The notes under the pieces are model-generated. The model was not told where the DNA came from and did no database searches. It saw only the letters and a program-made list of their open reading frames with translations. A stretch of DNA of 36,636 nucleotides from Acidobacteriota bacterium (GTDB taxonomy: Bacteria > Acidobacteriota > Terriglobia > Acidiferrales > UBA7541), in assembly GCA_003223215.1 (NCBI GenBank), contig QHYH01000140.1:1-36636 (forward strand), read 5' to 3'. This document shows positions 1 through 26,576 of the stretch, in pieces (position 1 is the stretch's first letter; each line of letters starts with the position of its first letter). Position numbers and translations under genes: made by a program.

Positions 1-60
1 CAGAGTGAGACGGCTTCTGTCGCCAACGCGGCTGCACAAACGCTACGACATCTCGAGCTC

Positions 61-94
61 ATTTTCATCCTTCGTTGTGACCCCGAAGGGGCCA
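61..94 (-). terminator. Hairpin tail downstream of adop1 (tail element copy 1)
   Basis: Read leftward, the adop1 stop is followed by a GC-rich perfect or G-U stem at 79-93 (GGCCCC-TTC-GGGGTC), then the conserved string CACAACGAAGGATGAAAAT. The same string follows adop2 and adop4, but there the stem is GGCTCT-CGG-AGAGCC, so the stem sequence changed while pairing was kept. This favours a functional RNA hairpin such as a terminator or 3' stabiliser. There is no long U tract directly after the stem. The distal half seen in the other copies is not present here. Confidence 0.6.
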
Positions 95-98
95 TGAG

Positions 99-2804
99 TT
101 ACTCGTACCTCAGGGCAACCATGGGATCGACACGCATAGCGCGGCGGGCGGGTAAATACCCCGCCACCAGCGCCACCGCCGACAGCACTCCCACCGCTAC
201 CGCCATCGTGTATGTGTCCTGCGCCGCCATGCCAAACAACAAGCTCTGCAACAAACGCACTGAGCCCAGCGCCACTCCCACCCCAATCGCCACGCCCACG
301 ACCAGGATCAGTAGTACTTCGCGCAACACAAGTCTCAAGATTGATCCCGGCTGCGCCCCCAGCGCCATCCGCACCCCAAATTCCGTCTGCCGCTGCGTCA
401 CCAGATAGCTCACCGCCCCAAACAGCCCCATCATCGCCAGCAACAACCCCAGCATTCCAAAAAATCCAGATACTGCGGCCAACAGCCGCTCCTGCACGAG
501 ATCGTCACCCACTTGACCAGCAAGCGTACGAAAGTTCAGAGGAATGTCCTTACTCACCTCTGCCGCAGCCCTCCGTACGGGTTCAATCAGCATCTCGGGC
601 GCGACAGTCGTTCGAAGCACGAACTCTTCAACAGATACGCGTGAAGGTATCTGGGCCGCGGGAAAGAACACTGTCGGCGGAACAACTTCTCGCACTCGTT
701 CGTATTTGGAGTCCTTCACCACACCTACAATTTCTACTTGTTCCGGTTCGTCTCCCCACCGGAAATGTCTTCCCAGTACGTTCCCGCCTGGAAAGAATTT
801 GCGCACTGCCGTCTCGTTCACGATCGCCACATGTGCGGAATTCTTCGAATCGTGTTCATCGAAGTCGCGCCCCTGCAGGAGAGGGCTGCGCAATACCGCG
901 AAATAACCAGGACTCACGAAGTTGAGGTAAATGGATGCCTCATCGCCTGTGGGCGCATTGGGAGCATCTGTGTGAATGATTTGAAGCCAATTGTCATCAC
1001 CAATGGGTGTTGTAAACGCACGGGCCGTCGAAAGGACGCCCGGAAGTGCACGCAGCCTCGGCTCGATCTCTTCATAAATCGCTGTTCGCTTTTCAGGTCC
1101 TGCCTTCGCCGTGTCTACCGCGAACCACGGTGGCGTCGCGCTGACCACCAAAACATTGCTACGGTCGAAACCTAGGTCAAGAGTCACCAGCTTCACAAAA
1201 CTGCGGAGCAGCAGGCCACCTCCGATCAACAGCACGAGCGTAAGCGCTACCTGCCCGGCCACAATCCATCGGCCTGCTCCTAATCCCCGTGCATCTCCGG
1301 CGCAGGCCCTAGCCTTCATCGCCTCAATCAGCGCGATCCTCGTCGAACGAAATGCGGGCAACAGCCCAACCAGAATCGCCGTGAGAGCCGCAGACAGCGC
1401 CGTGAATACCAGCACCCTTGCGTTGATGGAAAGATCGAGAAAGACGTCGTTTTCTGCAGTAGCTAATTGCCGCACCAGTAGCGCGCCGCTCCACTTTGCA
1501 AACAGCACCCCAAGTCCGGCCCCCACAAACGAGAGCAGCACAGATTCTGTGAGCAGTTGACGAATCAACCGGCCCCGCCCCGCTCCAAGGGCTTTGCGGA
1601 CGGCGATCTCCTTTCCACGGGCTGTGCCCCTCGCCAGCATCAGGCTTACGATATTCGCGCACGCGATGAGCATCACCACCGCGACGATGACCATCAGCAC
1701 GCGCAACGCCTGCCCAAACTCGCCGCGCAGTTCTGAAGTTCCCACACCCGCCGGAACGCTTACCAGTTTTGCCCTCAGGAATCGCCGTTGACCTTCTGCA
1801 TCCCAGCCCGGTAGCGCCGCATTCATCACTCCGGGCGAAAGTGCTTCTAGCCGTGCATTCAGTTGCACTGGTGTTATTCCCGGTTTGACGCGGCCCATGA
1901 TGCTCAGCCACCAGCGCGAGCGGCTCTCTGTGTTTCGCTTATCGAAGAGCGCGCTCGCGCAGATCGGCACAGCCACGTCAAACTTCTTCCCTACCTCGAC
2001 GCCGTAGAAGCGCGGCGCGCTGACACCGATCACCTCGAACGGTTGCCCGTACAAGGACAGCGTCCTGCCCAGTACGTTCCTCTCGCGACCAAAATTTGTC
2101 TCCCAGAATCCATAACTCAACACCGCAACGGGAGCGCAGCCCGGTCGGTCATCCGCAGCTGCAATCAACCGGCCTTCTGCTGCATTCACTCCGAGCGTGG
2201 TGAAGTAGTTCCCACTCACGAACAAGCCCTGCACCGCTCGAACGTTGCCGCTCCACTCCAGCGTGAATGGTTTCGAACGGCTCCAGGCAAACACTCCCGC
2301 GAAGGCCTCCTCCTGATCACGCACGCCTTCCCACAGAGCATTCGTGAAACCATCGCGGGCTTTGTCCTCGGGCTCCTGACGCAGAAGCAGCACCAGCTCT
2401 TGCGGATTTCCTACCGGCAACAGCCGCAGCAGCACCGCGTCCATCATGCTGAAAATGGTGGTAGTGGCGCCGATGCCGAGCGCGAGCGTGACAAGAGCAA
2501 CAGCGGTGAAGCCGGGAGATTTGCGCAATATGCGCAAACCAAAGTGCAAATCCTGTACGAAGTCCTGAATCAGATTTACACGCCGCGCGTCGCGGCATTT
2601 CTCTTTCGTCTGCTCGATACCGCCCAGGTCGAGTCGCGCCCGCCGCCGCGCTTCCTCTGGTGCCATCCCTTTTGCGACGTATTCGTCGGTTTTTCGTTCG
2701 ACGTGGTCGCGCAGCTCGTCGTCCAGTTCCTGGTCGGCCTGCGCCCCGCGAAACAACGACCGCAGTCTTAGGGGAATCGTGAACAGCCAATGTTCCGGTC
2801 GCAT
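99..2804 (-). CDS. ADOP-family orphan ABC permease (adop1)
   Basis: Inner-membrane permease of about 901 aa in the acidobacterial duplicated orphan permease family. Its role is unproven; relatives such as MacB, LolC and FtsX couple ATP hydrolysis to substrate extrusion or periplasmic mechanics. The order is a cytoplasmic N-terminal segment (about 1-85), first membrane helix (about 98-120), periplasmic MacB-type core, first FtsX helix block containing the hallmark EIAVRKALGAGRGRLIRQLL, a central helix, second periplasmic core, and a last FtsX block with EFGVRMALGAQ ending in VDPMVALRYE. The ATG at 2804 is preferred over an upstream GTG at 2822 because adop1-3 all begin MRPEHWLFTI there and a GGAGG lies just upstream. 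It is the last gene of the leftward operon, 111 bp after adop2, and that gap holds a repeat element. No ATP-binding subunit is encoded in the window. Confidence 0.93.
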   Translation of the reverse strand: MRPEHWLFTIPLRLRSLFRGAQADQELDDELRDHVERKTDEYVAKGMAPEEARRRARLDLGGIEQTKEKCRDARRVNLIQDFVQDLHFGLRILRKSPGFTAVALVTLALGIGATTTIFSMMDAVLLRLLPVGNPQELVLLLRQEPEDKARDGFTNALWEGVRDQEEAFAGVFAWSRSKPFTLEWSGNVRAVQGLFVSGNYFTTLGVNAAEGRLIAAADDRPGCAPVAVLSYGFWETNFGRERNVLGRTLSLYGQPFEVIGVSAPRFYGVEVGKKFDVAVPICASALFDKRNTESRSRWWLSIMGRVKPGITPVQLNARLEALSPGVMNAALPGWDAEGQRRFLRAKLVSVPAGVGTSELRGEFGQALRVLMVIVAVVMLIACANIVSLMLARGTARGKEIAVRKALGAGRGRLIRQLLTESVLLSFVGAGLGVLFAKWSGALLVRQLATAENDVFLDLSINARVLVFTALSAALTAILVGLLPAFRSTRIALIEAMKARACAGDARGLGAGRWIVAGQVALTLVLLIGGGLLLRSFVKLVTLDLGFDRSNVLVVSATPPWFAVDTAKAGPEKRTAIYEEIEPRLRALPGVLSTARAFTTPIGDDNWLQIIHTDAPNAPTGDEASIYLNFVSPGYFAVLRSPLLQGRDFDEHDSKNSAHVAIVNETAVRKFFPGGNVLGRHFRWGDEPEQVEIVGVVKDSKYERVREVVPPTVFFPAAQIPSRVSVEEFVLRTTVAPEMLIEPVRRAAAEVSKDIPLNFRTLAGQVGDDLVQERLLAAVSGFFGMLGLLLAMMGLFGAVSYLVTQRQTEFGVRMALGAQPGSILRLVLREVLLILVVGVAIGVGVALGSVRLLQSLLFGMAAQDTYTMAVAVGVLSAVALVAGYLPARRAMRVDPMVALRYE

Positions 2805-2818
2805 TCTCCGGCCCTCCC

Positions 2819-2914
2819 TCACTCCTATGAAAATAGCTGCCTATCGCGTTGAAAACAAAGCATAGGTGCCTGGGTCCATTTTCATCCTTCGTTGTGGCTC
2901 TCCGAGAGCCATGA
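2819..2914 (-). repeat. adop tail element (copy 2), between adop2 and adop1
   Basis: Read leftward from the adop2 stop: a 15-nt hairpin at 2896-2910 (GGCTCT-CGG-AGAGCC), then CACAACGAAGGATGAAAAT, a variable middle, then a distal block TTTTCAACGCGATAGGC followed by a block ending TATTTTCATAGGAGTGA. The last bases run into the ribosome-binding region of adop1. ATGAAAAT and ATTTTCAT are complementary, so a second, larger hairpin can form around the variable middle. The element closely matches 20611-20707 after adop4, in the same orientation relative to the gene. It may act as a partial terminator or processing site that sets adop1 expression below adop2; this is inference. Confidence 0.7.
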
Positions 2915-2915
2915 G

Positions 2916-5555
2916 TTACTCGTATCTCAGGGCTATCATGGGATCGACGCGCGTCGCGCGCCGTGCGGGGACGTAGGATGCTGCCAGCGCTGAGAGGACG
3001 AGGGCCACCACCACTGCTGCGAAGGTCTCTGGGTCGCCTGGTTTGACTTCGAATAAGAAATTCGCAAGCACGCGCGTTAAACTGAGCGCGCCAGCTCCCC
3101 CCAGAATGATTCCCATCGAAATCAGAACGAGCCCTTTTCTCAGGAGCATCTGTAATACGTCAGCACTCTGCGCGCCCAAAGCTATGCGGACGCCGATCTC
3201 TTGTGTGCGTTGCGCGACCGAGTAAGCCAAGACGCCATAAACGCCCACGATCGTCAGGACCAACGCAACGAGGGCGAATGTCATCAGCAATCTCGCCTGG
3301 AAGCGCGGCTCGGCGGTCGTCGTAGCAAGCAGGCTATCCATGGAAGTGATCGACACTGGCTGGTCCTTATCAATTTCTCGCAGAATGCTCCGCATCCCGG
3401 CAGCAACGTTTTCGGAAGGCGATGCGGTTTTCACGACGAACGTCATATGGCTGAGAAGGAATAGGTGCGTGATCTGGAGATAGGACTGGTAAATTGCGGG
3501 ATCGGATTTTTCCGCCAACCCTTTTTGCTTCACGTCATCTGCAACGCCGATGACGGTGAGCCAGTCTCCAGGTCCAGGATCATCTTCCATCGAGATGCGC
3601 TTCCCGATCGGATCTTCGCCAGGCCAGAGCGTTTGCGCGACGGACTGGCTCACGACAACGACCGCTGGCGCAGTGGCAGTATCGCGTTCGGTGAACTCAC
3701 GTCCGCGGAGCAAGTGGATTTCCATCGTCCTAAAATAACCAGAACTCACGCAAGGCTTATCGACGATGAAGCCCTTCGGCCGCAAACCGCCTTCGACTTG
3801 GAAATCGCCTCGGGTCAACTCTTCGGCGAGTGGAAGGTAGTTCACCAGCGCGGCAGCGAGCACGCCTGGCAGCCGGGAAAGCTCTGCCATCGTTCGTGTA
3901 TGAAACGCTTGCAACTGAGCCGCTGCGCGATAATTAGAATCGGGCAAGTCGACCGTGAGAGTGATCAGGCGCTGCGTCGAAAAACCAGGATCCACACTCC
4001 TCAGACGCAAGAAGCTCTTCAACATTAAACCAGCGCCGGTAAGTAGGATGAGCGCGAGGGCGATCTCTGAAATGGTCAGTGCGCCTCGAATACCTTCATG
4101 GCTCCGAGTCAGGGTGCGTCCCGCCGAACTCAACGCCTCGCGCGTGCTATGTCGCGTAGCCCGAAACGCCGGGGCCAAGCCGAACAGAATGCCAGTAAGA
4201 ATCGAAAGGCCAGCGGTGAAGGCAAGGACCCAACCATCGATCCGAATCATCTCCGTGCGCGGCACTGTTCCCACAGGCGCGAGAGCGGTGAGGGCCGGCA
4301 CACCCCAAAAGGCCAGTAACATTCCAGCCGTGCCTCCCGCGAGGGAAAGCAAGATACTCTCTGTTAGCAAGTGACGCACCAGCCGCCAACGGTTTGCGCC
4401 CAAGGTGCAGCGCACCGCGATTTCATGTCCTCGGCCGGCTGCCCGGGCCAAAAACAGATTGGCCACGTTCACGCAGGCGATCAGCAGAACGAACGCCACC
4501 GCGCCAGCGAACACGAGCAGCGAGCGACGAATGTTTGCAACGAATAAATCCTTTAATGGAATAATTTGCGGCCAACGGTCGCTTTTGTCCTCGCCTGGAC
4601 CGAGAGGCAGCCCGTCGGCGAAGGTTTCGAGTGCAACGTGCGCCTGTTGAGGCGAGACGCCGGGTTTCAGACGGCCCACTACTGGCCGAATGAAGGAATT
4701 GTGACCGATTTGCACGGCCAGCGGCATCCATACCTTGACTTCGGGCAGTGCAAAGCCGACGGGCATGATGCCAATCACGGTGCGGGCCACGCCGTCGAGG
4801 CGAATTGGCTTCCCTACAATTTGCGGGTCAGACCCAAAGCGCTCCTGCCAGAGGTTGTTGCTGATTACGGCGATATTGTCGCGGCCCGGCTGATCTTCTC
4901 CGGCAAAAAATTCTCGACCGATTGCGGGGTGGGTCCGAAGCGTCGCAAAAAAATCGGTCGTGACATACGAGACGGGAATTTGGACCGGATCACCCGCGTC
5001 AGTAAGATTTGCCCTATCTCCTCTGGTAAACATCGCTGTGCGCTCGAACACCTGATCCTGACCACGAAACGCGAGGTAATCGCGATCGGAAACGCCGGGT
5101 TCCCATCCGAAAGGGCCAACTCGCGGCACCAGCGAAACCAGGAACAGACGATCCGGTGCCGGGAACGGCATGGGCCGCAACAACACGCCGTTAACGACAG
5201 TGAAAACGGCCGTGTTAGCGCCGATGCCAATGGAAAGTGTTAGGACGGCAACGGCGGTGAACCCGGGAGATCTGCGCAGCATCCGCAGCCCGTAGCGCAC
5301 ATCTTGCGCAGAGTCCTGAATCCAGTTCACGCGTCGCGCGTCGCGGCATTTCTCTTTGGTCTGCTCGATACCGCCCAGGTCAAGTCGCGCGCTGCGGCGC
5401 GCCTCCTCTTGTGTCATCCCTTGTGCGACATATTCCTCGGTTTTTCGTTCGAGGTGGTCGCGCAGCTCGTCGTCCAATTCCTGGTCCGCCTGCGCCCAGC
5501 GAAACAACGACCGCAGCCGCAGTGGAATCGTGAACAGCCAATGCTCCGGTCGCAT
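2916..5555 (-). CDS. ADOP-family orphan ABC permease (adop2)
   Basis: A protein of about 879 aa with the duplicated MacB/FtsX architecture. The first helix motif is FTAVAVLTLSIGIGANTAVF, the first FtsX block carries GRGHEIAVRCTLGANRWRLV, and the last block has EIGVRIALGAQSADVLQML, ending VDPMIALRYE. The start is set at the ATG at 5555, which has AGGAGAG upstream and lies only 14 bp after the adop3 stop. A longer reading frame starting at 5633 would overlap adop3 and is not needed. The first 85 or so residues are almost the same as in adop1 and adop3, whereas the periplasmic cores are clearly different. The tight spacing implies co-transcription and possibly translational coupling with adop3. 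Two or three orphan permeases in one operon could form hetero-oligomers, but nothing in the sequence proves that. Confidence 0.93.
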   Translation of the reverse strand: MRPEHWLFTIPLRLRSLFRWAQADQELDDELRDHLERKTEEYVAQGMTQEEARRSARLDLGGIEQTKEKCRDARRVNWIQDSAQDVRYGLRMLRRSPGFTAVAVLTLSIGIGANTAVFTVVNGVLLRPMPFPAPDRLFLVSLVPRVGPFGWEPGVSDRDYLAFRGQDQVFERTAMFTRGDRANLTDAGDPVQIPVSYVTTDFFATLRTHPAIGREFFAGEDQPGRDNIAVISNNLWQERFGSDPQIVGKPIRLDGVARTVIGIMPVGFALPEVKVWMPLAVQIGHNSFIRPVVGRLKPGVSPQQAHVALETFADGLPLGPGEDKSDRWPQIIPLKDLFVANIRRSLLVFAGAVAFVLLIACVNVANLFLARAAGRGHEIAVRCTLGANRWRLVRHLLTESILLSLAGGTAGMLLAFWGVPALTALAPVGTVPRTEMIRIDGWVLAFTAGLSILTGILFGLAPAFRATRHSTREALSSAGRTLTRSHEGIRGALTISEIALALILLTGAGLMLKSFLRLRSVDPGFSTQRLITLTVDLPDSNYRAAAQLQAFHTRTMAELSRLPGVLAAALVNYLPLAEELTRGDFQVEGGLRPKGFIVDKPCVSSGYFRTMEIHLLRGREFTERDTATAPAVVVVSQSVAQTLWPGEDPIGKRISMEDDPGPGDWLTVIGVADDVKQKGLAEKSDPAIYQSYLQITHLFLLSHMTFVVKTASPSENVAAGMRSILREIDKDQPVSITSMDSLLATTTAEPRFQARLLMTFALVALVLTIVGVYGVLAYSVAQRTQEIGVRIALGAQSADVLQMLLRKGLVLISMGIILGGAGALSLTRVLANFLFEVKPGDPETFAAVVVALVLSALAASYVPARRATRVDPMIALRYE

Positions 5556-5569
5556 ACTCCGACTCTCCT

Positions 5570-8230
5570 TTACTCGTACCTCAGAGCGACTATCGGATCG
5601 ACACCCATCGCGCGACACGCGGGCAGATAGCACGCCGCCACGGCAACCGCCACAAACAAAATTGGCACTGCGGTGAACGTCAACGGATCATTGGGCGCGA
5701 CCTGATACAGCAATGTCGTGAGCGACCGGGTCGCTGCCAGCGCCACGACGATGCCCACCGCGACTCCTACCACCGCCAGCTTCAATCCACTGCCAATGAC
5801 CATGCGCAGTACCTGCACCGGGCTTGCGCCCAGCGCCATGCGGATGCCGATTTCGTGGATCCGTTGCGAAACCAGATGGGCCATTACGCCATAGATTCCG
5901 ATCGTCCCCAAAAACATGGCCAGCGCGCCGAAGAAGGCCATGAGCTTGGTCATCACGCGGTACCCTGCGTCCACAACAGCTATCAGGGTTTCGAGGGGAG
6001 CCGAAGAAATCGGCTGGTCGTTGTCTACCGACCAAATCGCATCGCGGATAGCGGTGGCCATCATCGTCGGATCAGCGGATGAGCGCACAACGAACGCCAG
6101 AGTCGAGGAAGGAAATTGGGCTAGGGGAACGAACATCAGCCATCCGCCTCGCTCTCGCAGGTGATCTCTCATAATGTCCCGTACCACCCCCACAATTGTG
6201 GCGACGGTATGTTGTTCGCCAAATCGAATTTGTCGTCCAATGGGATCTTCATTCGGCCAAAATTCCCGCGCGAAGCTTTGCGTGATAATCACGACTGGCG
6301 AACTTCCTTGCGAGTCCGCAGAATTAAAAAAGCGGCCTTTGACCAGCCCAATCTGCATCGTCGAAAAATAATCGGGGGAGGCGGCCGCAAAGCCTGCGCC
6401 AGTTCTTTCTCCCGGCTGAGAAGGCCTCCTAACGGCTTCCACTTCGACGCCCTGGCCAAAGCCGCCGAACGGAACGTTGCTGGCCGCGCCCGCCGAAGCT
6501 ACCCCCGGCAACGCACGGAGGCGCGCCAGAACTTCTTCACCGAAATTTCTCTTCTGCGAGTCATTTATGTATTTCGTCCTGGGCATCACAAGTTGCGCAG
6601 TCATGACGTTTTCCGGGTTGTAACCGGGGCTGGTGCGTATGGAAATGATGAAGCTCTTAACCACCAATGTCGCTGAGATGAGCACAACCACAGCGAGCGC
6701 TATCTCCGAAGCTACGAAGATTCGCCGCAAACGTGCGCCCCGTTGGCCGCCCGACGCCTGGCCTGACGCTTCCTTGAGCGTCTGATTAACGTCTAGCCTT
6801 GCATTCTGGAACGCCGGCGCCAGCCCGAACACTAACCCACACACGAGTGCAATTCCGAGCGTGAACGCCAGCGTCACGAAATCCAGGTCAACGTGTCCGT
6901 AATTGATCATGTATCCGCGAATGCGGCCCGGAATCCACGACTCGATCAGCCTCATCAACCAAAAGCCGAAAAGAGTTCCGGCGACTCCGCCCAGGAAAAA
7001 GAGAAGCAGTGATTCCGTCAGAAGCTGCCCAGCCAGCCGGCCTTCGGTCGCGCCAAGCGCCCCGCGTACGGCGAACTCCCTCGTGCGGCTTGTCGCCCGA
7101 GCCAGCATCAGATTTGCAACGTTCGCGCAGGCGATCAAAAGGATTAGCCCTACGATCACGAAGACAATCATCAGCTCAGGCCCTCCTTCTTTTCTGCGAA
7201 TATCCCAGGTCATGGAGTTGACAAGCCAGGTGAGATTGGCGTTCGTCTGTGAAAACTGCTTTTCAAGGCCTGAAAAAAACACTCCTGCTTCCGCTTCAGC
7301 TTGCTCTTGCGTCACGCCGGGCTTCAGTCGGCCAAATGCAGGAAGCCAGCTACCGCTGCGGTCCGCACGCTGCTTATCGGTGAGCGCCAGCGGCGTCCAT
7401 AAATTCGCGATGCCCATTAGCGGAAACTGAAACGTCCCCGGCATAACACCGATTACCGTGTACGCTTCGCCTCCAACGGTTATGTTGCGTCCGATAATTT
7501 TCGGGTTGCCGGCGTATCGGCCTTGCCATAATCCCTCGCCAAGAATGCAAACGTGCGGAGCGCCTGAGCGGTCGTCATCTGGTATAAAGGTTCGCCCTAA
7601 GATGGGCTTGGCGCCCAGCGCATCAAAGAAATTCCAGGTCACTCGCCCGCCGTCGACTAACTCGGGATGCCCGTCACCCGTGAGATTGAGACCCGCACCA
7701 GCCCAAGCTACGATTTGTTCGAACGAAGTGTTCTGCCGCTGAAAGTCGAAGAAGTCGGCAGGGGAGGTGACGTGCTCGCCGGTCCATCCGTTTTTCTTGT
7801 CATGCGTCGCGAATACCATCAAACGGTCGGATCGCGGATAGGGCAACGGTTTGATAATCCAGGCGTTGATACAGCTGAAGATGGCAGTGTTTGCGCCAAT
7901 CCCGAGGGCTAGCGTCAGGATCGCGACGACAGTGAACGCGCGGCTCTTTGCCAGCATTCGCAAGCCGTAGCGCAAATCCAGAATCAGGTCTTGAATCCAG
8001 TTGACTCTGCGCGCGTCACGGCATTCTTCCTTTACCTTCTCCACGCCGCCCAGGTCGAGCCGCGCGCGCCGGCGCGCCTCTTGTTGCGTCATTCCTTTTG
8101 CGAAATATTCCTCGGTTCTTCGTTCGAGGTGGTCGCGCAGCTCGTCGTCCAAATCCTGGTCCGCCTGCGCCCAGCGAAACAAGGACCGTAGCCGTAGGGA
8201 AATCGTGAATAGCCAATGCTCCGGTCGCAT
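5570..8230 (-). CDS. ADOP-family orphan ABC permease (adop3)
   Basis: First permease of the leftward operon, about 886 aa, starting 30 bp after the padR stop. The ATG at 8230 has GGAGG eight bases upstream. It has the N-terminal module MRPEHWLFTI, a first helix FTVVAILTLALGIGANTAIF, an FtsX block with REFAVRGALGATEGRLAGQLL, a central helix around IALAVVVLISATLVVKSF, and a terminal block with EIGIRMALGASPVQVLRMV ending VDPIVALRYE. Its stop leads directly into the adop2 ribosome-binding site. Placement right after padR suggests it is the direct regulatory target. The substrate cannot be deduced: the variable periplasmic cores carry no recognisable binding motif. Confidence 0.93.
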   Translation of the reverse strand: MRPEHWLFTISLRLRSLFRWAQADQDLDDELRDHLERRTEEYFAKGMTQQEARRRARLDLGGVEKVKEECRDARRVNWIQDLILDLRYGLRMLAKSRAFTVVAILTLALGIGANTAIFSCINAWIIKPLPYPRSDRLMVFATHDKKNGWTGEHVTSPADFFDFQRQNTSFEQIVAWAGAGLNLTGDGHPELVDGGRVTWNFFDALGAKPILGRTFIPDDDRSGAPHVCILGEGLWQGRYAGNPKIIGRNITVGGEAYTVIGVMPGTFQFPLMGIANLWTPLALTDKQRADRSGSWLPAFGRLKPGVTQEQAEAEAGVFFSGLEKQFSQTNANLTWLVNSMTWDIRRKEGGPELMIVFVIVGLILLIACANVANLMLARATSRTREFAVRGALGATEGRLAGQLLTESLLLFFLGGVAGTLFGFWLMRLIESWIPGRIRGYMINYGHVDLDFVTLAFTLGIALVCGLVFGLAPAFQNARLDVNQTLKEASGQASGGQRGARLRRIFVASEIALAVVVLISATLVVKSFIISIRTSPGYNPENVMTAQLVMPRTKYINDSQKRNFGEEVLARLRALPGVASAGAASNVPFGGFGQGVEVEAVRRPSQPGERTGAGFAAASPDYFSTMQIGLVKGRFFNSADSQGSSPVVIITQSFAREFWPNEDPIGRQIRFGEQHTVATIVGVVRDIMRDHLRERGGWLMFVPLAQFPSSTLAFVVRSSADPTMMATAIRDAIWSVDNDQPISSAPLETLIAVVDAGYRVMTKLMAFFGALAMFLGTIGIYGVMAHLVSQRIHEIGIRMALGASPVQVLRMVIGSGLKLAVVGVAVGIVVALAATRSLTTLLYQVAPNDPLTFTAVPILFVAVAVAACYLPACRAMGVDPIVALRYE

Positions 8231-8770: not shown

Positions 8771-9157
8771 TCATTCGGCAGCTTCGGGCAACTCTTCGAT
8801 GTTCTTGTATCCGTTGTTGCCCTGACCGACGTTCACCAGGCAGGGAAGATGGAGTTCCATCACGGCTTCGATCTCGTTCGCCGGAATGTCGTAACCACTC
8901 GCTTCCAGACGCTCCGCCAGCTCTTCGGGACGGCCGAACACGCGCACCGTCTTGCCGCCGACATCCACCTTGAGAAAAAGAGAGTCGCCCTGACGGGTTT
9001 TCATGCGATCAATCTTGGTGATGACCGCATGAACAGGACTCCCTTCAGTGGCGGATGTGGCACGAGACTTGATCGGCTTTGTTTTTGCCGCGCTCGGTGA
9101 AACAGCTTCCCGAGCATAGATGGCAACCTCACTGTCGATCCTTATATCAAACACCAA
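8771..9157 (-). CDS. Hypothetical protein with IS-derived N-terminus
   Basis: A 128-aa reading frame of unknown function. The first ~13 residues (MVFDIRIDSEVAI) are encoded by the antisense of an insertion-sequence end (homologous block begins at 9119), so the native 5' end was probably replaced. Residues about 14-40 are Lys/Ser/Ala-rich and look like a linker. Residues about 40-128 look folded, with a beta-rich stretch (AVITKIDRMKTRQGDSLFLKVDVGGKTVRVFGRP) and an acidic helical end rich in Glu. No family is recognised with confidence. It lies upstream of a strong hairpin, which supports it being, or having been, transcribed leftward. It may be a truncated gene that still finds a start inside the IS relic. 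Confidence 0.5.
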   Translation of the reverse strand: MVFDIRIDSEVAIYAREAVSPSAAKTKPIKSRATSATEGSPVHAVITKIDRMKTRQGDSLFLKVDVGGKTVRVFGRPEELAERLEASGYDIPANEIEAVMELHLPCLVNVGQGNNGYKNIEELPEAAE

Positions 9158-9372
9158 TGGCTGCGTGATTTTCCAAAGACTCGCGCTCGCTGCGATATCC
9201 TGTCTGACCTCGGCAAACTTTCCGAGAAATCATTCGGCTTCCTTACATCGAAACTAGCTTCGAGGATCCGATCGTGTCACTGCAACCGAATGCGTTCCGA
9301 ATATGAGACCCAGTTCACTTTCACAGTCTGATTACCCGTAAAATCGGCCCCGTAAGAATTCGCCAGCTACAG
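9119..9372 (+). mobile_element. IS relic A: transposase C-terminus plus IS right end
   Basis: On the top strand the first ~50 bp read RWQPHCRSLYQTPMAA then stop, the typical C-terminus of an integrase-type (rve) transposase common in acidobacteria. The following ~200 bp of noncoding DNA match 26322-26576 closely, including a 64-bp identical block (9273-9336 versus 26477-26540). Only the terminal fragment remains. Homology starts abruptly at 9119, inside the leftward ORF ending at 8771, and stops about 50 bp before the higBA promoter. Confidence 0.8.
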
Positions 9373-17937: not shown

Positions 17938-17946
17938 GAGGTGGCC

Positions 17947-20607
17947 ATGTTCTCTGAGTGGGCGAACAAAACCTGGCTGCGCCTGAAAGGGCTCTTCAAA
18001 AGGAGGCAGTTGGATCGCGACCTCGAAGATGAACTGGCGTTTCACTTGGCGAAGCGCGAGCAGAGGAACCTCGAAACGGGGATGGAGGCGAATGAGGCAC
18101 GATATGCCGCGAGGCGCCAGTTCGGCAATGTGTCTTGGACCAAACAAAGGAGCCACGAAATGTGGACCTTCGTATCGCTCGAATCCTTGGCCCAGGACCT
18201 TCGTTACGCCCTGCGGATGCTTCGCAAAAGCACTGCGTTCTCCACGGTTGCCATCCTCACTTTGGCTTTGGGCATCGGCGCGAATAGCGCGGTGTTCAGC
18301 GTTGTCTACTCAGTGTTGCTGAAGGCGCTTCCGTATCGCCAGGAACAGCGCTTGGTGCTGATCTGGGAGACCAAGGCTAACGAGGGGCGCGATCACAACG
18401 TGGTTTCACCGGCCAATTTCCTCTACTGGCAGAAACACAGCACGGCGTTCGAGCAGATGGCCACATTCTTCGACGACACCTCGACACTCACCAGAGAGGG
18501 AGAGCCAGAAGAGATCCCATCGCAGGGCATTTCAACGAATTTGTTTTCCCTGCTGGGTATCTCGCCCATGTTGGGCCGGGATTTTTCGAGTGATGAAGGG
18601 CGCCGCGGTCACAACCATCAAGTTCTGCTGAGCTACGGGTTGTGGCAGCGGCGGTTCGGCGGGGACCGCGCCGCCATAGGAAAGCTCATCAGGCTCGATG
18701 GGGAGAGTTTTCTTGTCGTGGGCGTAATGCCGCCTGGAGTAACGCTCTTCGCTTCGCAAGGCTCGCTGACGGAGAAAGTGGCGCAACTCTGGTGGCCCTA
18801 TGGGTGGAGAGACGAGGACTGGGCTCCGCGCGGCCGCTGGATGAGTGCAATAGGGAGACTTAAACCGGGAGTGAGTCTAACGCAAGCGCAAACCGAAATG
18901 AACGGTCTGGTCGCAAGTTTCACAAAGGTGTATCCAGATTTCGAAACGGGATGGGGAGTGAACTTGGTGCCGGTTCGCGAGGATCTCTCGAGTGCAATCC
19001 GGCCGACTCTGGCGGTCTTGCTTGGGGCGGTCGGTTTCGTGCTTCTGATTACCTGCGCAAACGTGTCAAACCTGCTTCTTTCTCGCGCTTCCAGCCGTGA
19101 CCGCGAGATGGCCGTGCGGGCCGCACTTGGCGCCAGCCGTTGGCGGATTGTGCGGCAATCGCTGACAGAAAGCCTGGTGCTTGCGATTTTGGGAGGTACG
19201 CTCGGGATTCTTGGAGCCCAGTGGACGCTCTCTGCGATGGTGCTGCTGATTCCCAAGACGCTCCACATGAGCCCGATCCACCTCGACTGGCGCATGGTAG
19301 TTTTCACAACCGCCGTTTCTTTACTGACGGGCCTGACGTTTGGATTGGCCCCCGCATGGGACACGGCTCGCATTGGTATAAGCGATGCGCTGCGCGAGGC
19401 AGGGCAGGCGCAAACGGGAGTTCGGGGGCACCACATTCGGAATGCGCTCGCCGTCGCCCAAATCACCTTGTCGCTGGTGCTGCTGGCGGGCGCGGGGCTA
19501 CTCATGCGAAGCTTCGTAATGCTTTCCTCTGTGGATCCGGGGTTCAACCCGCGGAATCTGCTGACCCTGAGAATCAGCCTTCCTTCAGTCAAATACGCAA
19601 AGCCGAACCAGTACATCGATTTTTTTCAACAGCTCTTGGAGCAGGTTCGGACGCTACCGGGGGTTCGGGCCGCAACGATTGACAATTCATTTCCGCTGAC
19701 CGGCATGACGCCTGGAACTGACTTCGACATTGCCGGAAAGCCGGCCCGCGCCCGCGGCCAGGAACGCCTCACCGACGTGCAGCTTGTGGGTTCCGACTAT
19801 TTCCGAACGATGCGAATTCCGGTGCTCCGAGGGCGGACATTTTCCGACCGGGAAGAAACCATAGAGTCTCACGTGGTAATCGTCAGCGATTCCCTGGCGC
19901 GGCAGTATTTCCCCGGCGAAGATCCTCTCGGACACAAGATCCGCATTGATATGAAAGACAAGAACGATTTTTCAGAGATCATCGGCGTCGTTGGCGACGT
20001 AAAACGGCAGGGGTTGGACACGACTCCGGTGGCCATGAGCTACTGGCCGCATGCCGAGCTTCCTTTTTCGAGCATGATGCTTGCGGTGCGTACGGATGGC
20101 GATCCTTTTGCAAAAGTAGCGCCAATCCGCGACATCGTTCATCGAATGGATTCCGATTTGCCGCTCTCCGACGTTGCCACGATGGACCAGGCGCTCGGAG
20201 ACTCGGTTGCACGCCAGCATTTTGGCGCTGTGCTGGTGACGATTTTTGCGGCCATCGCTTCGTTTCTTGCGGCCATTGGGATTTATGGTGTGGTGGCGCA
20301 CGCCGTGAGCCTGCGCACGCGCGAATTCGGGATTCGCATGGCGCTCGGTGCCGAACAACGAGATGTATGGTCGCTGGTGTTCCGTTTTGGATTCGCGATT
20401 TCGAGCATCGGCGTGGCGCTTGGTGTAGCCGGCACACTGGCGCTGACGCCGTTGATTCGAGGATTGCTGTTTGGAGTGGGCACGCATGATCCGGGAACGA
20501 TAGCCGGAGTTGCTGCATTGCTGATGGCCATGGCCCTTGCGGCTTGCTGGATTCCCGCCCGTCGCGCCACGCATGTGGATCCCATCGTGGCGTTGCACTA
20601 CGAGTAA
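17947..20607 (+). CDS. ADOP-family orphan ABC permease (adop4)
   Basis: About 886 aa with the duplicated MacB/FtsX architecture. The ATG at 17947 is chosen because AGGAGG occupies 17936-17941; a GTG at 17941 falls inside that site. The N-terminal module (MFSEWANKTWLRLKGLFKRR, then ELAFHLAKREQRNLETGM) differs from the MRPEHW type of adop1-3, so this is another subfamily. The first helix is FSTVAILTLALGIGANSAVF, the first FtsX block has DREMAVRAALGASRWRIVRQ, and the final block has EFGIRMALGAEQRDVW, ending VDPIVALHYE. There is again no ATPase gene nearby. The gene is followed after 3 bp by the hairpin tail element, which is nearly the same as that after adop2 although the N-terminal halves differ. 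Confidence 0.94.
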   Translation: MFSEWANKTWLRLKGLFKRRQLDRDLEDELAFHLAKREQRNLETGMEANEARYAARRQFGNVSWTKQRSHEMWTFVSLESLAQDLRYALRMLRKSTAFSTVAILTLALGIGANSAVFSVVYSVLLKALPYRQEQRLVLIWETKANEGRDHNVVSPANFLYWQKHSTAFEQMATFFDDTSTLTREGEPEEIPSQGISTNLFSLLGISPMLGRDFSSDEGRRGHNHQVLLSYGLWQRRFGGDRAAIGKLIRLDGESFLVVGVMPPGVTLFASQGSLTEKVAQLWWPYGWRDEDWAPRGRWMSAIGRLKPGVSLTQAQTEMNGLVASFTKVYPDFETGWGVNLVPVREDLSSAIRPTLAVLLGAVGFVLLITCANVSNLLLSRASSRDREMAVRAALGASRWRIVRQSLTESLVLAILGGTLGILGAQWTLSAMVLLIPKTLHMSPIHLDWRMVVFTTAVSLLTGLTFGLAPAWDTARIGISDALREAGQAQTGVRGHHIRNALAVAQITLSLVLLAGAGLLMRSFVMLSSVDPGFNPRNLLTLRISLPSVKYAKPNQYIDFFQQLLEQVRTLPGVRAATIDNSFPLTGMTPGTDFDIAGKPARARGQERLTDVQLVGSDYFRTMRIPVLRGRTFSDREETIESHVVIVSDSLARQYFPGEDPLGHKIRIDMKDKNDFSEIIGVVGDVKRQGLDTTPVAMSYWPHAELPFSSMMLAVRTDGDPFAKVAPIRDIVHRMDSDLPLSDVATMDQALGDSVARQHFGAVLVTIFAAIASFLAAIGIYGVVAHAVSLRTREFGIRMALGAEQRDVWSLVFRFGFAISSIGVALGVAGTLALTPLIRGLLFGVGTHDPGTIAGVAALLMAMALAACWIPARRATHVDPIVALHYE

Positions 20608-20610
20608 CCC

Positions 20611-20707
20611 ATGGCTCTCGGAGAGCCACAACGAAGGATGAAAATAGCCGCTCACTGTTGAGCCAATCTTTTCAATGAGATACGCGGCTATTTTCATAGG
20701 AGTGAAT
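20611..20707 (+). repeat. adop tail element (copy 3), two hairpins
   Basis: Immediately after adop4: hairpin 1 at 20613-20627 (GGCTCT-CGG-AGAGCC), then CACAACGAAGGATGAAAAT. Hairpin 2 has a perfect 14-bp stem, ATGAAAATAGCCGC (20638-20651) with GCGGCTATTTTCAT (20684-20697), and a 32-nt loop containing TTTTCAATGAGATA. The end, CATAGGAGTGA, matches copy 2, where it leads into the start of the next adop gene. TTTTCAATGAGATA recurs at 21068-21081. It probably works as a terminator or transcript stabiliser. Confidence 0.75.
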
Positions 20708-26182: not shown

Positions 26183-26576
26183 TTCTGGACGACGGCAGAT
26201 CTCGAAAACAAGCTGCTTGATTTCAGGACCTACTTCAACAACCATCGCAGGCATACGGCACGGCAAGGGCGAACGCCGGATACGGCTGTGGCCCCACCAG
26301 TCGCCAATCTCCGCTCGTTTCGATGGCAACCTCATTGTCGATCCTTATATCAGACACCCATCGCTGCATGATTCTCCAAAGACTCGCGGCTTCGCTGCGG
26401 CATCCGGTCGACCTCGGTAAAACCTCCAAGAAATCATTCGGTGTTCTTGCATCGCAACGTCCTTCGCGGATCTGACCGTGTCACTGCAACCGAATGCGTT
26501 CCGAATATGAGACCCAGTTCACTTTCACAGTCTGATTACCAGTAAATTGGCCCGTGACAATTCGCCACCCACAGGC
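26183..26576 (+). mobile_element. IS relic B: transposase C-terminal third plus IS right end
   Basis: The frame 26183-26371 reads FWTTADLENKLLDFRTYFNN then HRRHTARQGRTPDTAVAPP and FRWQPHCRSLYQTPIAA then stop, the C-terminus of an rve-type transposase. The catalytic domain upstream is missing. The noncoding part 26372-26576 matches relic A at 9119-9372, including a 64-bp identical block. The element is dead. The remaining ~200 bp up to the lipase stop (26577-26775) hold nothing recognisable. Confidence 0.8.

Follow-up and report, generated by a model that had tools for sequence, protein, structure and literature searches.

Why does the same short repeat stand directly behind three permease genes, each time in the orientation of the gene? 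The question arises in 36,636 nucleotides of an Acidobacteriota bacterium of the UBA7541 lineage (assembly GCA_003223215.1, contig QHYH01000140.1, positions 1 to 36,636); this whole stretch is called the window here. The three genes encode ADOP permeases (TIGR03434), and a sequence-only reading of the window had taken the repeats for a selected RNA structure tied to this permease family. Its three places, each behind an adop stop codon, proved correct, and the 18-mer core of the repeat, ACAACGAAGGATGAAAAT, occurs three times in the window versus 0.02 expected. The comparisons below suggest a different cause. The window repeats are very probably insertions of one bridge-RNA-guided family of IS110 type: the left end of one insertion sequence (IS) and two mini-elements that resemble miniature inverted-repeat transposable elements (MITEs). 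Their parts and sites are:

1..101, minus strand: left end of an IS110-family element, truncated by the contig edge; TAA tip 99-101, stem 79-93, core 61-78
102..107, minus strand: target hexamer TACGAG, end of adop 99-2822
2819..2821, minus strand: displaced original stop codon TGA of adop 2916-5633, now behind mini A
2822..2918, minus strand: mini-element type A (mini A), 97 bp; own TAA tip 2916-2918, 5' stem 2896-2910, core ACAACGAAGGATGAAAAT 2878-2895, right tip TTTTCATAGGAG
2919..2924, minus strand: target hexamer TACGAG (Tyr-Glu codons), end of adop 2916-5633
20599..20604, plus strand: target hexamer TACGAG, end of adop 17941-20607
20605..20702, plus strand: mini-element type B (mini B), 98 bp; TAA tip 20605-20607, 5' stem 20613-20627, core 20628-20645, 14-bp inverted arms ATGAAAATAGCCGC/GCGGCTATTTTCAT, right tip CATAGGAG
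20703..20705, plus strand: displaced original stop codon TGA of adop 17941-20607

The sequence-only reading had located the units well but had missed where they start: the first three bases of each unit are the stop codon itself, and the full units run over 2822-2918 (minus strand) and 20605-20702 (plus strand). It had also counted the copy at 61-94 as the same kind as the other two. That copy is instead what the contig edge leaves of a full IS110-type element, namely its left end, of the same type as that of the full element in contig C20. Both of the hairpins it described are present; the second is formed by the subterminal inverted repeat of the element.

In the 8.8-Mb genome the core was listed at 42 places, with 40 exact copies, one copy with one mismatch (C20) and one with two (C70). 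The last (L041, G000:C70:54890-54907) is a decayed mini with two core changes, behind the protein end ...ALRYE. It was left out of the copy analyses, which took in the other 41. Older insertions with more core changes than L041 would escape a core search.

Alignment of the 41 copies showed that the constant part starts at the stop codon of the gene (TAA; TAG in one copy). The left flank reads TAC GAG, except for one TAT GAG, a tandem copy with TAG GAG and one copy whose flank is off the contig. The minis end on the right with ...TTTTCATAGGAG or a close variant, and a stop codon follows directly in 32 of 36 (17 TGA, 8 TAG, 7 TAA); for L011 this following stop is the tip of a second unit, hence 31 old stops among the 32. 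On the plain reading, a unit that brings its own stop codon would have slipped in behind the last sense codon and ahead of the old stop. For mini A, the displaced stop at 2819..2821 was assigned from the joined flanks (L003), whose best match to uninterrupted adop ends is 91% over 103 bases.

The minis fall into two types of nearly uniform sequence. Type A has 21 copies (20 of 97 bp and one of 90), with the commonest sequence present 15 times, and type B has 15 (14 of 98 bp and one of 97). Mean identity among equal-length copies is 99.4% for the 20 of type A and 98.8% for the 14 of type B. In the remaining five of the 41 copies the interior is longer and of another kind; all but one of them are close to contig ends, as is seen for repeated elements in draft assemblies. 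The minis retain ~40 bp of the IS left end and ~17 bp of its right end: the left segment is common to the full elements L008, L013 and L020 of this genome, and the right tip to its IS right ends L261 and L265. Few right flanks could be read for IS copies at contig ends; among the 11 IS right ends in the genus that could be read together with a transposase tail, eight are directly followed by a stop codon, two after an extra GAG, and one (L249) by none.

Two arrangements of minis are worth recording. At L011 (G000:C38:6248-6363) two minis stand in tandem, type B and then type A, with the GAG junction in common. L006 and L029 have one right flank in common but carry different minis, which points to a strain mixture or a second tandem.

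Unoccupied versions of the same sites are also found. Flanks were joined for the 35 copies that have both and compared with adop ends of the same genome that lack a unit of this kind (group 1; a second group is described below). For 12 of the 35 an unoccupied paralogue aligns with the joined sequence through the junction; in eight of these, such as L014 and L030 versus L173, identity is 86-91% with no more than one gap. A match of L011 to L180 was not counted because L180 bears a group-2 unit. At the single-permease locus L034, the five orthologues read (more were found) all lack an insert, and the last codon runs straight into the stop. A second locus, L037, aligned at 70-74% only, with three of four sequences empty and the fourth (L276) bearing an IS left end, and a fifth sequence that did not align; its orthology is unsure and it was not used. 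One empty site lies within the window:

5573..5578, minus strand: unoccupied target TACGAG followed by the gene's own TAA, end of adop 5570-8230 (L221)

The parent of the minis is predicted to be an IS110-type element. In contig C20 the order is left end, ~200 bp of non-coding DNA, transposase gene, right end TATTTTCGTAGGAG and then GAGTGA, and the transposase carries both IS110 domains, PF01548 and PF02371. The same pair, the N-terminal DEDD domain (PF01548) and the C-terminal PF02371, was found in the pieces of L040, in L055 and in L095. The long non-coding end lies upstream of the transposase gene, as in the IS110 group (left end ~225 bp, right end ~17 bp). Unbroken transposases of 412-418 residues with the same left end occur in the same genus (L047, L055) and in a sister genus (L057); the L055 protein aligns in sequence with the IS621 transposase of solved structure at E 6e-12, in the C-terminal part only, and is thus a remote relative. 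Among 95 genomes of the order, the core is present at no more than one mismatch in 15, and a related transposase at E <= 1e-60 in 13. We read 27 loci from other genomes by eye: 24 are left ends directly behind a permease end (ALRYE, ALRHE or ALRYQ), in two (L049, L061) the left end is interrupted by ~85 bp of inserted sequence, and one (L058) is no element. The insert of L049 and L061, which lie on two contigs of one genome, is identical and stands between the 5' stem and the core.

At its tip the element carries a stop codon of its own. Final codons and tips were recounted without presupposing the codon, with L048, L052, L060, L067, L244 and L246 read by eye. Group 1 comprises 46 distinct rows, of which 43 are readable; their final codon is GAG in 39, GAA in three and CAG in one, and the tip is TAA, TAG or TGA in all 43. 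The same holds for 25 of 26 group-2 units. The tips of eight relatives with other targets are TTC, TTG, TGG, TCA, TCC or TTT. In a transposase tree, one clade with support 98/96 unites the five permease-targeting rows with L097, an element whose contig does not reach its left end; the stop-codon tip may thus have arisen once.

Group 2 was found at 26 places in nine of the 95 genomes, all of one genus. By eye, 24 of the 26 stand behind a permease C-terminus, and the left flank is GAA in 25 with one unclear. The window's genome has a group-2 mini at a TATGAA adop end (G000:C111:10163-10182; L180, L224). A sister IS110 group (L099, L101 and L134, the same element as L083) is inserted at GGGATGAG; as AAGGCCGG follows the insert in L099 and L101, the two whose right side is known, this target itself looks like repeated sequence.

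How would such an element find the end of a permease gene? Two conserved blocks lie between the left tip and the transposase gene. In block 1 one stretch equals the last codons of the permease to the left of the element, and a second is the right flank, stop codon included, in reverse complement. All 15 distinct pairs with TAY/CAY-GAR targets have a left target guide equal to the left flank, at 90 of 90 bases (shuffled mean 77; 0 of 50000 shuffles as high). The Tyr/His codon alone gives 45 of 45 matches versus 38 when shuffled, a score reached in 8 of 50000 shuffles, and 18 distinct pairs that include other targets give 121 matches versus a shuffled mean of 80. The 15 pairs are ten distinct ones from a guide table plus L225, L228, L244, L049 and L061, of which L049 is not behind a permease. 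From the 24 rows of that table we dropped L030 (permease open reading frame, ORF), L106 on the minus strand (no left end) and L103 (left flank off contig); L052, whose loop is broken by a deletion, and left ends that stop early (e.g. L065, L066, L072) gave no pair. Guide and target vary together: TATGAG with TATGAG (L040), CACGAG with CACGAG (L062), TATGAA with TATGAA (L077), TACGAA with TACGAA (L079). The distant relatives L083, L089, L098, L099, L101, L106, L121 and L158 sit at unrelated sites, and their guides match 6-8 of 8 bases. The right target guide was read by eye in six complete elements, and in four (L040, L090, L091, L095) it names the actual stop codon.

Block 2 contains the right tip of the element, as a donor guide would. 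In the IS copies L008 and L013 of this genome the donor guide is CATAGGAG, the right tip of its minis; in group-1 IS of other genomes it is CGTAGGAG, equal to their right tips, and in the group-2 elements L077 and L095 it is CTAAGGAA. Of 11 elements scored, nine have a left donor guide identical to their right tip over 8-9 nt (82 matched bases versus a shuffled mean of 52, 0 of 3000); by eye the other two, L098 and L158, as well as L099 and L101 from outside these 11, also match over 8-9 nt. The donor guide match suggests that a resident IS of the L008/L013 kind is the natural helper of the minis.

The stem of the repeat is clearly maintained, and it belongs to the element. Its sequences are those of the sequence-only reading, GGCTCT-CGG-AGAGCC in two copies and GGCCCC-TTC-GGGGTC in the third, and the claim that pairing was preserved through compensatory change held in a wider comparison. 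The outer five pairs of 21 distinct stems, taken from both groups and from distant relatives, give 105 cells; 95 of these are paired (shuffles: mean 80, maximum 90, 0 of 5000 as high), and three of the five pairs changed on both sides; the rows are related, and the shuffles overstate significance for that reason. Pairs were counted from the outer ends by a script, since MAFFT aligns stems of unequal length poorly. A consensus fold of nine left ends has both-side changes in 10 of 37 pairs. The stem is inferred to be the 5' stem of the bridge RNA. Minis of both groups keep it though they lack a guide, and we would guess from this that it has a role in cis. No Rfam family scored above its gathering score in the window or in the IS left ends of loci L055, L077 and L099; the only match in these three loci was a tRNA in L099.

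The mechanism that we propose runs as follows. The full IS would encode a DEDD transposase, with a structured RNA region upstream of the transposase gene. The target loop of this RNA would spell the final permease codons, TAC GAG or a variant of it, together with the stop, and its donor loop the right tip of the element, which would then insert between the last Glu codon and the stop codon. The protein would remain unchanged because the tip of the element is itself TAA, TAG or TGA. Minis have neither guide nor transposase; full copies most likely supply RNA and protein and so move them in trans, as judged from the empty sites and the shared ends. Boundaries, empty sites, guide-target and guide-donor matches and the conserved covarying stem can be read off the sequence; that the RNA is made and that the transposase acts on the minis is what we infer from them. 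An effect on the mRNA may be a by-product of insertion. With moderate confidence in the proposal as a whole, we further suggest that the minis are guide-RNA parasites, integrated by the bridge RNA of another element; that the ~40-bp left segment retained by the minis of both groups, with the covarying stem and ATGAAAAT, is a cis-acting mobilisation signal beyond the short donor sequence of IS621; that guides were repeatedly retuned to TAC/TAT, GAG/GAA and Tyr-to-His CAC variants of one C-terminus; and that the stop-codon tip makes a paralogous family a harmless landing ground.

The proposed target is a DNA word, the hexamer TACGAG, and not a gene family. The neighbours of the 41 copies are 37 permease ends, two other sites, one tandem and one contig end. 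Thirty-one of the permease ends are ADOP-like, and six belong to single MacB/FtsX permeases that score far below the ADOP cut-off. In the two other sites (L007, L032) there is no permease in frame, just GTACGAG. Of the 274 candidate ADOP hits, 67 were scored for occupancy: group-1 units stand at 15 of 23 ends with TACGAG and at 0 of 44 other ends (Fisher p 1.4e-9), and among GAG ends alone at 15 of 23 with TAC versus 0 of 13 (p 9e-5). One of the 44 other ends, L180 (TATGAA), bears a unit of the second group. L202, also with a TATGAA end and entered as empty, may hold a decayed group-2 left end. The link to permeases and the covarying stem noted in the sequence-only reading thus stand, and the copies are neither scattered at random nor devoid of compensatory change; the cause that we propose is insertion of a mobile element at a fixed hexamer, and what the copies follow is the codon pair TAC GAG, not the ADOP family as such. 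The host genes in the window are:

99..2822, minus strand: ADOP permease gene, host of the IS110 left end (TIGR03434, 845 bits); the ORF call begins inside mini A, and the true start is probably the ATG at 2802-2804
2916..5633, minus strand: ADOP permease gene, host of mini A (TIGR03434, 907.5 bits)
17941..20607, plus strand: ADOP permease gene, host of mini B (TIGR03434, 965.3 bits)

These results bear on three other explanations. The repeats could be a selected RNA of the adop transcripts (a terminator, attenuator or mRNA stabiliser), as their covarying stem, their permease link and the fold of type B (z -3.7) would allow. A unit belonging to ADOP transcripts should ignore synonymous final codons, however, and the group-1 unit is missing from all 44 scored ADOP genes with other final codons; this codon dependence speaks against a regulatory RNA. 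So do the boundary between sense and stop codon with a second stop after it, the near-identity of the copies within each type and the presence of that left end on transposase genes. No terminator-like site was found in the type-A region, and in type B the search returned one weak match per strand, a 5-pair stem (two found versus 0.4 expected). We regard this explanation as highly improbable.

Spread of the units by duplication of adop genes together with their tails, without transposition, would fit the tandem clusters of adop genes and the likeness of some spacers. Yet the units are ~99% alike while the surrounding gene ends and right flanks differ, some copies have another permease, or in two cases no permease, in front of them, the sequence runs on uninterrupted at empty paralogous and orthologous sites, and two unit types as well as full IS ends share one kind of site; duplication is thereby left with a very slight chance. 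Hardly any credence remains for repeats of the REP/BIME (repetitive extragenic palindromic/bacterial interspersed mosaic element) kind, moved by an IS200/IS605-type or REP-associated tyrosine transposase (RAYT): the repeats here are likewise short, palindromic and present in many intergenic copies, but their ends belong to an element with a DEDD (IS110) transposase, and the insertion hexamer is spelled by a guide within that element. REPs and REPINs are short palindromic non-autonomous intergenic repeats; because the RAYT enzyme class and the ends differ from those here, identity with them was rejected.

Several observations weigh against guided insertion as the source of the repeats. Transposition, RNA and protein are all predictions from sequence alone. 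Four of the 36 minis have no stop codon directly behind them (an extra GAG in L007 and L030, a partly repeated right end in L023 and L032). Among the joined flanks, 22 of 35 have no paralogous match, and four of the 12 matches are poor, at 67-80% with 4-9 gaps. Support for the right target guide falls short of that for the left: it differs by a G-U pair in L093 and is mismatched in L092. In the sole full copy found in the window's genome, that of C20, the reading frame is broken, and the donor guide, CGTAGGAGG, which is also how its right end reads, differs from the CATAGGAG of the minis; the remaining four IS left ends of this genome are at contig ends. We think an intact helper in the genome likely. 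Folding is equivocal: the left-end RNA of L055 folds no better than shuffles (z -0.06), so that the RNA claim does not rest on folding energy, and the fold of mini A is not clearly better than shuffles (z -1.6).

A further point concerns the Glu codon. At one locus, all five orthologues read have GAA where this genome has GAG and a mini. The last two bases of the Glu codon are probably the recombination core, and core exchange could turn GAA into GAG, which makes the preference for GAG over GAA weaker evidence for target choice. The Tyr codon is not subject to this objection: among GAG ends, the units stand at TAC alone, as given above.

The predicted system resembles IS621 and ISEc21 as these are described in excerpts of two reports (PMC11208160, PMC11187229). 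Shared features are a transposase with PF01548 and PF02371, a long non-coding left end upstream of the gene, target- and donor-matching stretches preceded by a 5' stem, a short core common to element and target, and one specific insertion sequence. By the description in the excerpt on IS621 (PMC11208160), the 5' stem-loop of its bridge RNA lies at a position that matches the covarying stem here. Unlike what the excerpts describe for IS621/ISEc21, the elements here target permease genes at their 3' end and in register with the stop codon, their own tip is a stop codon, and many minis without transposase accompany them. The order of the guides also differs from IS621/ISEc21. In L090, L091, L095 and L040 the top-strand match lies 5' of the bottom-strand match, the order given for IS1111 in the excerpt of PMC11187229, and yet the RNA region lies upstream of the transposase gene as in IS110. 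Taken with the subterminal repeats ATGAAAAT/ATTTTCAT, the architecture seems to be a mixed one.

The minis recall MITEPsy1 (100 bp) and MITEPsy2 (PMC3189936) and MITEPye1 (PMC11578231), which, in excerpts of these papers, have no gene, carry the ends of a resident IS, occur in several near-identical copies and are presumably moved in trans. The parents described there have terminal inverted repeats (IS5-like, Tn3-like, IS1182), whereas the parent here would be of IS110 type with a fixed site, and both a guide RNA and a transposase would have to come from elsewhere. The minis are short and non-coding, share both ends with a resident transposase-bearing element and exist in near-identical copies. 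Their inverted repeats are subterminal (ATGAAAAT.../...ATTTTCAT), and there is no duplication beyond the common 2-3 bp core; we therefore call them MITE-like and not classical MITEs. A search of the open-licence PMC literature, which does not include ISfinder and TnPedia, found no IS110-derived mini-element.

Since their description in 2024, bridge-RNA recombinases have been studied as tools for programmable DNA insertion. Natural mini-donors of less than 100 bp would show what an IS110 donor needs in cis, and a natural series of guides retargeted to variants of one protein motif would bear on guide evolution and tolerated mismatches. The element would also be an example of a selfish element that spares its host by means of its own stop codon. 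Finally, guided insertion would account for a repeat that could otherwise pass for an RNA element of acidobacterial permeases, and annotators of ADOP genes should watch for such tails.

The window contains further direct repeats, at 9119-9349 and 26322-26553. They are 17.2 kb apart, align at 86% over 144 nt and 91% over 67 nt, and are unrelated to the element.
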